A stretch of DNA of 64,000 bases, from NCBI GenBank assembly GCA_030068525.1, contig JASJOS010000007.1:310001-374000 (forward strand), in the 5' to 3' direction. The translations under genes were made by a program, and so were the position numbers. Below the pieces are notes generated by a model. It worked only from the letters and a program-made list of their open reading frames with translations, did not search any database and was not told the DNA's origin. Shown piece after piece: positions 12,833 to 17,538 of the stretch. Each line of letters opens with the position of its first letter. Within the stretch, counting starts at the first letter, position 1. The DNA comes from Xanthocytophaga flava (GTDB taxonomy: Bacteria; Bacteroidota; Bacteroidia; Cytophagales; 172606-1).

Positions 12833-13699
12833 ATGACAACTAAAAAAATAAAATCCATTCCAGTAAACTCTATGGGAACCGACTTCGGTGAAGGGGTTGC
12901 TATTGAGAAGATATCTTTCCAGGATTTTGGTACTATAGAAATTGAAAAAGCAACTCAGTCACACCGTGAGGATAGTCATTCGTTTTTCTTGCTTGAAGAA
13001 GGATCTGTTTCCATTGAAATCGATTTTCAAGAGTATACCATTAAATCTCCATCTATTATCTACATGCATCCAAACCAGGTACATCGTATACTGGCATTTG
13101 ACAATGTAACCGTTAGCAGTTGGTCAATCAGTAATGAAAATCTGAATCCTGTGTACCTAACATTGCTGGAAGACATCACCCCTACAAAACCATTGCTATT
13201 AGAGAAAGAAACGTTTTCAGTTATTTCTGAGGCTGTAGCACTTAGCATAAAATTCACTGAACAGAAAAGAGATAAACTCTATCACTCATTATTGAAAGAT
13301 AGTTGCAATGTATTAGTGGCATTGGTTGCGTCACATTATGTAGAGCACACTACATCAACAGACAAACTTTCACGGTTTGATAGTGTCACCAAAGCATTTA
13401 AGAAGCTATTGGAACGTAATTATACCATAACCAAACGTCCGGCTTCTTATGCTGAAGAACTAAATATATCAACACCCTACCTAAACGAATGTGTCAGGAA
13501 TACAACAGGACATTCTGTTTCACATCACATCCAGCAACGGGTAGTACTAGAAGCAAAGCGCTTGCTTTTTCATTCGGATAAATCAGTAAAAGAAATTGCC
13601 ACAGAATTAGGCTATGACGACTACCCTTATTTTTCACGGCTATTTACTAAGGTTACCGGGATGACAGCGCTGGCTTTCCGAAACAAAAACCTCGATTAG
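12833..13699 (+). CDS. AraC-family transcriptional regulator
   Basis: This 288-residue regulator has an N-terminal cupin sensor (FFLLEEGSVSIEIDFQEYTI, then YMHPNQVHRIL) and a C-terminal DNA-binding domain with SVKEIATELGYDDYPYFSRL and TALAFRNK. It closely resembles the regulator at 41894-42751 in the HTH region. It is divergent from the SDR gene and lies 81 bases upstream of the FAD monooxygenase start, so it could control either or both. Confidence 0.9.
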   Translation: MTTKKIKSIPVNSMGTDFGEGVAIEKISFQDFGTIEIEKATQSHREDSHSFFLLEEGSVSIEIDFQEYTIKSPSIIYMHPNQVHRILAFDNVTVSSWSISNENLNPVYLTLLEDITPTKPLLLEKETFSVISEAVALSIKFTEQKRDKLYHSLLKDSCNVLVALVASHYVEHTTSTDKLSRFDSVTKAFKKLLERNYTITKRPASYAEELNISTPYLNECVRNTTGHSVSHHIQQRVVLEAKRLLFHSDKSVKEIATELGYDDYPYFSRLFTKVTGMTALAFRNKNLD

Positions 13700-13780
13700 T
13701 CCAATAGCTGCTCTGTATTGCCATTTCTTATCCCTGCGATACAATGTTCCTTTGCATTGTCAACTAAAATCATACAGACA

Positions 13781-14893
13781 ATGAACTCATCAAAAGAAAA
13801 AAAGGTACTAGTTTCAGGTGCAAGTATAGCCGGACTTTCTACTGCGTATTGGCTAAACAAACTGGGTTACAAAGTAACCGTAGTTGAAATTGCCAATGAA
13901 CCCCGAATGGGAGGTACAGCCGTTGATTTTCGGGGAAAGACAGTTGATCTTGTGAAACGTATGGGGCTTTTCGAGCAGTTACAATCACATGCATTGAATC
14001 TGGAACGGATAGAATTTAAGAATGCAGAGGATGTAACTGAGAACTCACTTTTGCTGAAAAATGAAAAACATCTTAGTAATGAAATCGAAATTGAACGAAC
14101 CCAGTTAGTGCGTATTTTACTAGATAGTGTACAAAATGATGTTGAGTTTATTTTTAACAACAGCGTTACTTCATTAACCGAAACAGAAGATGATATAAAA
14201 GTCACTTTTAAAAGTGGATCACAACAAGCATTTGATTTAGTAATTGGCTGTGATGGCACCCATTCGGGTATACGAAAAATCTGGTTTGGTGACGAAAGAG
14301 AATATACACATTTTCTGGAAGCCTACTTCTCTATATCAATCGTGAACAAATCGCTAATTACTCCAAACACCATGCAATTTTATAATGTGCCGGGTAAGGC
14401 GTATATGCTGAATGCCTACAAGGATAAAACGGATATCGTTTTTTGCTTCCTTTCAGAAAAAGAGATTCCCTATGACTATCGTAATACAGAGCAACAACGA
14501 CAAATAATTCTGCAACAATTTACAGGGCAAGGCTGGAGAACAGCAGAATTGTTGGAAGAGATAGCAAATTCAACGAATTTCTATTTTGACAAATTTTGTC
14601 AGATCAAAATGCCATCATGGACAAAAGGTAGAGTAGCACTGGTGGGTGATGCAGCCTATTGTGCTTCGCCTGCTGCAGGCATGGGAGGCTCACTCGCAGT
14701 GGAAGGAGCTACAGCACTGGCCGATGCATTACAAAAACACAACGGAAATTTTGCATTAGCCTTTCAGGACTATAACAAAAATTTACGTCCGTTTATTGAA
14801 GAAGTCCAGGCAGAAGCAGAATTTAATGTTAGAGAAAACTTTATTCCAAGAACAGAAGAAGCGATTCGAAAAAGAAACAGAGATGGCTTTTAA
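13781..14893 (+). CDS. FAD-dependent aromatic-type monooxygenase (TetX-like superfamily)
   Basis: This 370-residue protein has an N-terminal FAD-binding fold, VLVSGASIAGLSTAYWLNKL, with GxSxxG in place of the usual GxGxxG. A mid-protein segment DLVIGCDGTHSGIRK (the DG motif) follows. The late VALVGDAAYCASPAAGMGG carries the GD motif that contacts the flavin ribityl chain. This arrangement defines class A flavoprotein hydroxylases, which include TetX and rifampicin monooxygenases as well as many catabolic enzymes. An in-frame TTG at 13718 would extend it by 21 residues. The ATG at 13781 is preferred. Regulation by the adjacent AraC protein is likely. Drug inactivation is only a possibility. 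Confidence 0.87.
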   Translation: MNSSKEKKVLVSGASIAGLSTAYWLNKLGYKVTVVEIANEPRMGGTAVDFRGKTVDLVKRMGLFEQLQSHALNLERIEFKNAEDVTENSLLLKNEKHLSNEIEIERTQLVRILLDSVQNDVEFIFNNSVTSLTETEDDIKVTFKSGSQQAFDLVIGCDGTHSGIRKIWFGDEREYTHFLEAYFSISIVNKSLITPNTMQFYNVPGKAYMLNAYKDKTDIVFCFLSEKEIPYDYRNTEQQRQIILQQFTGQGWRTAELLEEIANSTNFYFDKFCQIKMPSWTKGRVALVGDAAYCASPAAGMGGSLAVEGATALADALQKHNGNFALAFQDYNKNLRPFIEEVQAEAEFNVRENFIPRTEEAIRKRNRDGF

Positions 14894-15291: not shown

Positions 15292-16089
15292 TTAACTATT
15301 CATTGGAACTATCCTGTCAGCTAAACTCAGCGTGTATGTTAGGTTGGGATAAACAAAATCTAAGCTTCGGTTCTCTTGTCCTCTTAACTTGAAAAATTCA
15401 GATTCTTGCTCCTGATTGGCTAACTCTAGTAAATCACCCGTAACAAAATAGGGTAAATTGTCATTGAATTGAATATAGGTCTTTGACGTTCGGAATGTAA
15501 TCCCTAGCCATTTAATATCTGGTACAATTGGTTTTCCGTTTGGTGTTGGCTTTAGTATAATCTTATGTTGAAACTTAGTGTTAGTCTCCGAAGAAAACAA
15601 CACCACTGAATTATGATTCAATTCAATTTCAGATTCTTCGTTTGTTATTTTGTCTTTGATCAGAAGCCTTCGTATGTTTTGCTCTGATAATTGGTCTGGT
15701 TGAGCATAACAGGAAAAAACGCCGATATAGGAGCCAGTAGCTAAATCCAGACATTGGTCTGAATGATAGTTCATTTTAGCATAACTACAATCATATACTT
15801 CTATCAATGCGTTGTTAAACTGCTGTGGAGGTATAGAATGTAAACTATCCTTTGTAATGGTATGGTTGATTGCCTCCACTACACTATGGTGAATAGCAGA
15901 AAAATTATGTGCAGGTATTGTGTATTTGGTAGTAGTTCTCACTATGGGTATACCCTTCGCTTCCACACGCACCAGGTGGTTACCCATTCTGCCTTTCGCT
16001 ACAGATTCAAATTCAATAGAATGAAATAAATCCTCGAACAGGTTTCCGGCTAGAGGAAGTTCTATCTTATAAAATCCAGAATCAATCAT
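15292..16089 (-). CDS. Putative 2-oxoglutarate/Fe(II)-dependent oxygenase (second of a tandem pair)
   Basis: This 265-residue protein is not recognised as a named family, but it shows the facial-triad pattern of 2OG-Fe(II) dioxygenases. His109 and Asp111 lie in MNYHSDQCLDL. The distal His175 lies in KFQHKIIL. Arg200 and Ser202 (GITFRTSK) stand where such enzymes bind the 2OG carboxylate. Strands around them (YIGVFSCY, NSVVLFSS) fit a double-stranded beta-helix. It begins 17 bases after the stop of a longer protein with the same pattern (16107-17339), so the pair probably forms an operon. No signal peptide or membrane segment is seen. Substrate unknown. The enzymatic call is inference from motif order. 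Confidence 0.6.
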   Translation of the reverse strand: MIDSGFYKIELPLAGNLFEDLFHSIEFESVAKGRMGNHLVRVEAKGIPIVRTTTKYTIPAHNFSAIHHSVVEAINHTITKDSLHSIPPQQFNNALIEVYDCSYAKMNYHSDQCLDLATGSYIGVFSCYAQPDQLSEQNIRRLLIKDKITNEESEIELNHNSVVLFSSETNTKFQHKIILKPTPNGKPIVPDIKWLGITFRTSKTYIQFNDNLPYFVTGDLLELANQEQESEFFKLRGQENRSLDFVYPNLTYTLSLADRIVPMNS

Positions 16090-16106
16090 TGTCCCTCTAT
16101 CTGACG

Positions 16107-17339
16107 TTAATAAATAGGTTTTTCATAGTCCCCGGAGTTCATGCTGAAATGAATCTTCCCATATTCAATTAGTTTCTCTGATACATTCTCCTCATAATAC
16201 GAATCCTTCAGATTCTGTTGTAATTCCGGGGTCATTTCCTCCAGCTTAATCAGGCCTATATTTTCCTTTATATATACCTGGTCATTCATATACAAAGCCT
16301 CTGCATTGGAACACCGAACTACATACCCCATACGCGTCGGTATTTGATCAACACCTAAAGTAGAGGGTCTGATCTCGTGGGTATATAATCTATTTGTGGA
16401 AAGTGGAATGATAAACACAGAGTTTGGATATAACGTAACACTGAATTCTTTTTCCAGTGTATCATCCGTGACTGAGCTTTTTAATTTGAAGTGAAGCCTT
16501 GTTAATGCACTTGTCTGTTTGTAACACAAATCATATCTGTCTGTAGCTGAACGTTTCAGGTGTTCACTGGTAAGGTTATCATAGAAAGTGCAGAAGGCAA
16601 TAAGTCCGTCTTTCGGCATATCCTTGGTTTTATCAGAATGCGCTTTAATTTTTGATTTAACCTCCTTTTCAGTATCAACTGTTTTCTTCTTATTTTCATA
16701 AATCTGTACTAACACATGGTTCAGTTCAGTTTCCTGCTCAAAAACATACCTGACAGAATCATTTAACAGATTGATGATTTTATGGTCAGTAGTACGGAAG
16801 TTATCAGTAGGCCCGGTCAAATTACTGGAACATCTTAAAAGTCGGTAATGCAGGATGGCATTTCCCTCTTCACTTTCTTCTTTTGTGATTTTGGTCAAAT
16901 AAATTCCTTTTCGTAGAGCCTTAGATTGCTTATTTGACTCGGTTAATTCCTGAAACACATGTTCCGATTTGATCTTACTAAAATAATCATCGTCTGCAAA
17001 CAGGTTTCTAAAATAAACACCCGCATTACTAACGATGATGGGAACCTCGCCAAGTGTTATGATCCGGACATTTTCATTTGTGTGATTTTCGTAATGAACA
17101 GATAGTTCTTTGATAATATATAGAGGGTTCTTCTTTTCGGTAAGCTTTTGTATATCACCGCATACATAAAGGCGTATATCGTTTCTTTCGACCAGATCGT
17201 CCGAAAGGTTGTTTACCACTTTTCCACAAAAGGTCTTGATCAAAGACTGAAGCTCAGAATTTGTATCCTGATCATTCTGTAAAACAAAAAGGATATTTTT
17301 GTCTTTGGAAATTTTATTTTCGATTTGCGAGGCATCCAT
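16107..17339 (-). CDS. Putative 2-oxoglutarate/Fe(II)-dependent oxygenase with an extra N-terminal domain (first of a tandem pair)
   Basis: A 410-residue protein. Residues about 160-350 parallel the downstream protein. His234 and Asp236 are in IKAHSDKTKDMP, matching YHSDQCLDL there. His321 is in LYTHEIRP, and Arg342 and Ser344 in GYVVRCSNAEA. The aligned strands are LIAFCTFY and NSVFIIPL. The preceding segment ELNHVLVQIYENK matches FNNALIEVYD in the partner. The first 150 residues (KNILFVLQNDQDTNSELQSLI, VRIITLGEVPIIVSNAGVYFRNL) have no counterpart and are unrecognised; they look alpha/beta. The two genes are 17 bases apart. A paralogous, possibly heteromeric or sequential enzyme pair is inferred. 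Confidence 0.55.
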   Translation of the reverse strand: MDASQIENKISKDKNILFVLQNDQDTNSELQSLIKTFCGKVVNNLSDDLVERNDIRLYVCGDIQKLTEKKNPLYIIKELSVHYENHTNENVRIITLGEVPIIVSNAGVYFRNLFADDDYFSKIKSEHVFQELTESNKQSKALRKGIYLTKITKEESEEGNAILHYRLLRCSSNLTGPTDNFRTTDHKIINLLNDSVRYVFEQETELNHVLVQIYENKKKTVDTEKEVKSKIKAHSDKTKDMPKDGLIAFCTFYDNLTSEHLKRSATDRYDLCYKQTSALTRLHFKLKSSVTDDTLEKEFSVTLYPNSVFIIPLSTNRLYTHEIRPSTLGVDQIPTRMGYVVRCSNAEALYMNDQVYIKENIGLIKLEEMTPELQQNLKDSYYEENVSEKLIEYGKIHFSMNSGDYEKPIY

Positions 17340-17538
17340 TTTTGGTAAAGTTTATATGTCTTTAAAAGTGAGGTTCGCACTTTTGTTTGAAGGGATTAGT
17401 TTCATTCCTAAAAAGACATTTTAGTGCTTAGTAGCAAAGCAAATAAAAAGAAGTGAAATTTAGTAATGAATCCTGTGCATGACATTACATGATACATAGC
17501 ATAGATCCAATAAACACAAACCATATGACAAGGATTAA

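Follow-up and report, generated by a model that had tools for sequence, protein, structure and literature searches.

A co-retained pair of predicted AlkB-like proteins in Xanthocytophaga flava, asymmetric at the arginine position expected to coordinate 2-oxoglutarate

Within the 64,000-nucleotide stretch of Xanthocytophaga flava DNA analyzed here (the window), which belongs to a 9.49-Mb assembly of 63 contigs, two adjacent genes raise the question of what kind of proteins they encode and whether these act together. Gene A (positions 16107 to 17339, minus strand) encodes a protein of 410 amino acids with an N-terminal alpha/beta domain followed by a predicted AlkB-like oxygenase domain containing H234xD236, H321, and R336xxxxxR342xS344. 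Gene B (positions 15292 to 16089, minus strand) encodes a protein of 265 amino acids with an AlkB-like oxygenase domain containing H109xD111, H175, and W194xxxxxR200xS202. The two open reading frames are separated by 17 bases. This gap, the shared strand, and the common order of motifs had been reported in a preliminary description of the locus and were all borne out by the window sequence. The ten residues numbered there proved to be invariant in the family alignments, namely H234, D236, H321, R342, and S344 in 35/35 rows of A and H109, D111, H175, R200, and S202 in 34/34 rows of B (34 and 33 distinct rows, respectively, each set containing one duplicate). Among them are the predicted iron ligands of both families, i.e., the HxD motif and the distal histidine. 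The HxD motif had been read as His-Ser-Asp, of which the histidine and the aspartate hold throughout, but the serine is replaced by alanine in three actinobacterial A proteins and by cysteine in the B protein of locus L028. Since comparison with the sister species (G002) gave dN/dS ratios of 0.15 for A and 0.43 for B, both genes are apparently under constraint.

The two proteins had initially been described as unrecognized. This label was wrong for B, which scores 36.1 bits against the Pfam AlkB superfamily model PF13532 (gathering cut-off 31.2) and has an ALKBH2-like predicted fold, while A reaches only a sub-threshold 18.1 bits (E 0.0034). When 19 proteins of the A family were compared with PF13532, 13 matched at E values up to 5, the best being 1.4e-4. 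The window genome carries two more PF13532 genes, and the NCBIfam matches of A and B were weak and far under the cut-off. AlphaFold models of the single chains, each built from a 19-row alignment, had a pLDDT of 89 for B and of 69 for A, the loop bearing the HxD motif of A (residues 218 to 238) falling under 50. The best Foldseek matches of the B model were to human ALKBH2 (E 4e-10), and the model contains a double-stranded beta-helix. The A model also matched ALKBH2 (E 3e-5), with query TM-scores of about 0.3 and rmsd values of 7.7 to 11 in the six best matches. Because of these Pfam, AlphaFold, and Foldseek results, B is clearly and A is probably AlkB-like; the earlier reading of both as 2-oxoglutarate (2OG)/Fe(II) oxygenases is well supported for B and stands less firmly for A.

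Profile alignment of A with B (hhalign) gave an E value of 7e-9 over 253 columns, and of 8e-11 with more rows. Together with the PF13532 scores, these values place the motif resemblance of the two proteins above chance, and judged by their profiles A and B are homologous. Against an AlkB profile, B aligned at E 9.5e-11 and A weakly (E 3e-4, probability 42). A sequence search of solved structures with the A profile returned no match, and the B profile retrieved ALKBH3 and ALKBH2 at E 0.09 to 1.9 along with one unrelated potassium-uptake protein at 0.32. In a phylogenetic tree, A and B formed one group apart from 25 ordinary AlkBs of relatives with a support of 100, a value to be taken with caution because of the long branches.

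AlkB homologues have been characterized by an HxD motif, a further H, and RxxxxxR, with 2OG coordinated by the first of the two arginines (PMC544882). The A family shows R336xxxxxR342 in 35/35 rows; the assignment follows from the pattern and from the A-B alignment, the A-AlkB profile alignment ending before that stretch. In B, the stretch reads W194xxxxxR200 in 34/34 rows, and the B-AlkB profile alignment places Trp194 on the first arginine and Arg200 on the second. We term B AlkB-like rather than a member of the family because RxxxxxR is replaced by WxxxxxR. The Arg-x-Ser motifs that the preliminary description had paired thus need to be reassigned: Arg200 of B aligns with the second arginine of RxxxxxR, and the first arginine is present as R336 in A but is Trp194 in B. 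With the arginine assignment corrected and B already recognized by Pfam, that first reading was right in outline. All 26 ordinary AlkBs that could be read at this position carry the first arginine, 25 of them having been chosen by a pattern that demands it. These references derive from 28 open reading frames at 29 loci (one locus yielded none), of which 25 passed the arginine-requiring pattern, two were wrong frames, and one further frame (RVNLTYR) shows the arginine by eye.

This asymmetry bears on the possibility that both proteins are active on nucleic acid, each with its own lesion or one oxidizing after the other, with B binding 2OG through Arg200 of its RxS motif. HxD...H and RxS are invariant in all B rows, B outdoes A in Pfam score and model quality, and the RxS arginine of B might take over 2OG binding. 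However, an invariant tryptophan occupies the place where the 2OG-coordinating arginine belongs and where the mostly pattern-chosen ordinary AlkBs carry it, and we regard activity of both partners as rather doubtful.

AlkB enzymes are single-protein repair enzymes that ordinarily act on m1A and m3C lesions, and an acidic residue two positions past the HxD aspartate has a role in base contact. This residue is Asp or Glu in 24/25 ordinary AlkBs, Thr in 35/35 A proteins, and Ala (18), Asn (8), Cys (7), or Ser (1) in B. As the acidic residue is missing in both A and B, it is unlikely that the pair constitutes an ordinary m1A/m3C repair AlkB. The substrate residues differ from those of AlkB to an extent that makes a nucleic-acid substrate itself uncertain. 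Some other 2OG oxygenases modify proteins or small molecules, and ALKBH7, a non-nucleic-acid enzyme, was among the Foldseek matches of A. Both this match and the replaced acidic residue would agree with a pair whose target is a protein or a small molecule instead of nucleic acid, as would the biosynthetic role of the fungal TlxIJ enzyme (PMC12141560). On the other hand, no biosynthetic cluster was found around the pair, endonuclease V (EndoV) being the only Pfam family with more than two members among 83 neighbor proteins, and the structural matches of B are led by the DNA-repair enzyme ALKBH2. A protein or small-molecule substrate is therefore considered unlikely.

The distribution of the pair was surveyed in three genome samples, which overlap in the window genome (G000) and in G290. 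A was present in 5/98 relatives, in 3/395 genomes of the phylum, and in 4/299 genomes of one family, and also in 23 genome-contig loci and three plasmid-collection records; when G672 and the identical L028 are taken as one, the total comes to 35 distinct genomes or records. B lies directly after A in 33 of the 35, which strongly supports the view that the two genes stay together. In G064, both genes are kept on different contigs, each amid other genes. In G521 (L135:6320-8164), A occurs without B and a transposase-like open reading frame sits at the place of B directly after A; in this genome A might function by itself or be undergoing decay. G735, from the same genus, has kept both. Searches for both proteins covered the relatives and the family sample, where a strong B without A was found in 0/93 relatives and 0/295 family members, weaker B matches (E 2e-9 or worse) being assumed to be ordinary AlkBs. 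The pairwise distances within A and within B are correlated (r 0.93, 34 rows including one duplicate). The A tree and the B tree agree in joining the window and its sister species to Chryseobacterium and kin (support 97 and 93, respectively), G014 lies near this group, and G059 and G064 from the order of the window branch early; this placement of the window pair fits a joint transfer of A and B. Bacterial AlkB groups were reportedly treated by Van den Born et al. in 2009, and nothing on the A-B gene pair was found among the matches listed from the open-licence PMC literature.

Several loci show peculiarities of their own, the first two described here being counted among the 33 adjacent pairs. 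In Chryseobacterium sp. E1 (L038:8001-10013), the pair is present with interrupted frames, possibly owing to assembly quality. In a Nonomuraea locus (L041:8001-9793), the A match ends at residue 377, where B starts in another frame, and the frame of A continues. Just upstream of the pair in G059 (L046:5157-6792) are genes for an iron-dependent repressor and ZnuA-type metal uptake, as assigned by reading the open reading frames.

The patchy spread of the pair and the position of the window pair beside Chryseobacterium in both trees could also indicate an accessory defense or toxin-immunity module that moves between genomes. In Winogradskyella-type loci, the pair is located within arrays of small proteins that, by our reading of the sequences, are immunity-like. 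A PADLOC search of the 83 neighbors matched 20 families, with a maximum of two members (WYL, Cas3c, AbiEii, and others) and with single members for MzaA (E 2.7e-48), mad2, PDC-M40A, PDC-M08B, and TPR and CARF models. However, PADLOC gave no match for A or B, no PADLOC family occurred in more than two of the 83 neighbors, and many of the matching models are generic (WYL, CARF, winged-helix, TPR). Moreover, A was unmatched in phage records, no relative was confirmed when viral contigs were scanned with patterns for A and B, and 11 Chryseobacterium loci have the same genes on either side of the pair. A defense role is not favored and appears very improbable. A phage or viral origin was rejected on the phage-record and viral-contig results together with PHROGs, in which A, B, and the EndoV-like protein described below had no match.

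In 11 of the 35 genomes or records, the gene immediately 3' of B is EndoV-like and approximately 168 codons long. These 11 loci are from Cellulophaga, Mesonia (two loci), Winogradskyella, Formosa, G014, and G290, and seven of them are close kin with surroundings in common. The protein in L030 matches PF04493 at E 1e-12. With five members, EndoV is the commonest Pfam family among the 83 neighbor proteins, taken from 14 loci and the window, the next commonest having two. Like Endonuclease V, the EndoV-like sequences show D, RE, and DG stretches, presumably the catalytic residues, but at approximately 168 amino acids they are shorter than the matched EndoV chains in the PDB (217 to 253 amino acids).

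The association extends beyond direct linkage. Of the 18 A-bearing genomes tested, 17 have a close EndoV-like relative (E 4e-37 or better), including the window genome, where the gene is unlinked to the pair (G000:C33); in G064 the match is weak (E 2e-4). At a threshold of E 1e-20, the EndoV-like gene was found in 4/4 A-positive vs 13/295 A-negative genomes of the family sample (Fisher p 7e-6) and in 4/5 vs 8/93 genomes of the relatives sample (p 6e-4, or 4e-3 with the genus of the window counted once), these p values ignoring relatedness and genome size. The four A-positive genomes of the family sample measure 3.9 to 5.1 Mb. As the A-negative counts indicate, the EndoV-like gene often occurs without the pair, and the pair was present without an EndoV-like match in an 11.85-Mb Nonomuraea record and in two Embleya records, the latter being possibly partial genomes. 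An independent hint of a connection between AlkB and EndoV comes from the A-negative genome G055 (L140:4901-6091), in which the same small EndoV-like gene follows a single-domain AlkB-like gene after 6 bases. In eight Flavobacteriaceae loci (L136, L137, L144-L149), the EndoV-like gene occurs without the pair amid small proteins that we assume to resemble toxin-immunity families, and some of these loci have amidase- and holin-like genes adjacent. A polymorphic-toxin origin of the EndoV link, considered and set aside, weakens the linkage of the Winogradskyella type but not that in G014, G290, or Cellulophaga.

Apart from the oxygenase domain, A has an N-terminal part with no counterpart in B. 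It had been estimated at 150 residues; as the A-B alignment begins at A105 or A142, the A-only part exists but comprises about 105 to 140 residues, with the alpha/beta domain at about residues 1 to 105. The BRCT model PF00533 matched one of 19 A family members below cut-off (E 0.043), and an hhalign comparison of the N-terminal part with 25 BRCTs gave a score of 17.9, exceeding 100/100 shuffles (maximum 16.2; nominal P 0.012). The domain is possibly BRCT-like, a weak reading that, if real, would suit DNA repair. Both A and B have, at the same place, a C-terminal tail of about 60 residues with no equivalent in the AlkB references. Similarity between the tails alone (P 0.011; score 15.9 vs 16.0 for the best of 100 column shuffles) is suggestive of homology.

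How could such a pair function? A and B probably work together, because they are nearly always found together and because B seemingly lacks the cofactor-binding arginine. The preliminary description knew of no two-component system of this kind, but two-component 2OG oxygenases have been described: in the fungal heterodimer TlxIJ, TlxJ is supported by TlxI, the partner without the alphaKG-binding arginine (PMC12141560). TlxI/TlxJ resembles A-B in consisting of two related proteins of 2OG oxygenase fold, one of which (here B, according to the profile alignment) is without the 2OG arginine; it differs in being fungal and in serving meroterpenoid biosynthesis, and its complex is solved (PMC12141560), whereas that of A-B is only proposed. 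We regard TlxIJ as the closest mechanistic precedent and, by analogy, A would most likely be catalytic and B auxiliary.

With respect to the AlkB superfamily (E. coli AlkB, ALKBH2/3), the predicted fold (clear in B, weaker in A), HxD...H, RxxxxxR in A, and the Pfam score of B are common features. In contrast to AlkB, A-B is a two-gene unit with Trp for the first arginine of B, with neither protein having the acidic residue, with C-terminal tails in both, and with an N-terminal domain in A. The arginine asymmetry, the lack of the acidic residue in both partners, and the association with an EndoV-like gene are new here. The data show homology, motif asymmetry, co-retention, and the EndoV association; complex formation, the catalytic roles, the direction of action, and a nucleic-acid substrate are our inference. 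A and B may be a duplicated AlkB-superfamily pair working as one unit, in which A would be the catalytic Fe(II)/2OG oxygenase and B, having kept the iron-ligand residues and lost the 2OG-coordinating arginine, would mainly have an auxiliary part in a heteromer, be it structural, regulatory, or in presenting the substrate. The likeliest target would be a DNA or RNA base carrying a modification or damage other than m1A/m3C, and the small EndoV-like nuclease may share this nucleic acid as its substrate. We tentatively prefer this functional pair, with EndoV possibly alongside, while holding it somewhat short of an even chance. If it is true, the AlkB superfamily makes two-subunit oxygenases in bacteria too, asymmetric at the 2OG site, and the EndoV association offers a concrete guess at the pathway. 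A more specific version, in which an obligate heteromeric AlkB-type enzyme, composed of a 2OG-blind paralogue and a catalytic partner (which a BRCT-like domain may direct), feeds the small EndoV in an undescribed oxidize-then-cut route for a damaged or modified base, carried as a bacterial mobile module, seems distinctly unlikely.

The sequence around the genes was also inspected. The leader of A (positions 17340 to 17490, minus strand; a stretch of about 150 bases) contains an 8-base inverted repeat (ATGTCTTT/AAAGACAT) with arms at 17412-17419 and 17356-17363. A riboswitch or structured leader was rejected, as the sole Rfam match was to a tRNA lying 0.7 kb upstream and the leader RNA fold was of no significance (z -1.13). 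A promoter and terminator scan of the sequence showed no excess. The leader is nearly identical in the sister species, the sequence beyond it and past B having diverged. Finally, genes for an AraC-like regulator and an FAD monooxygenase (positions 12833 to 14893) converge on the A-B pair, maybe by coincidence, and the FAD monooxygenase shares approximately 22% identity with an FAD monooxygenase encoded 3' of the pair in Chryseobacterium (L016).
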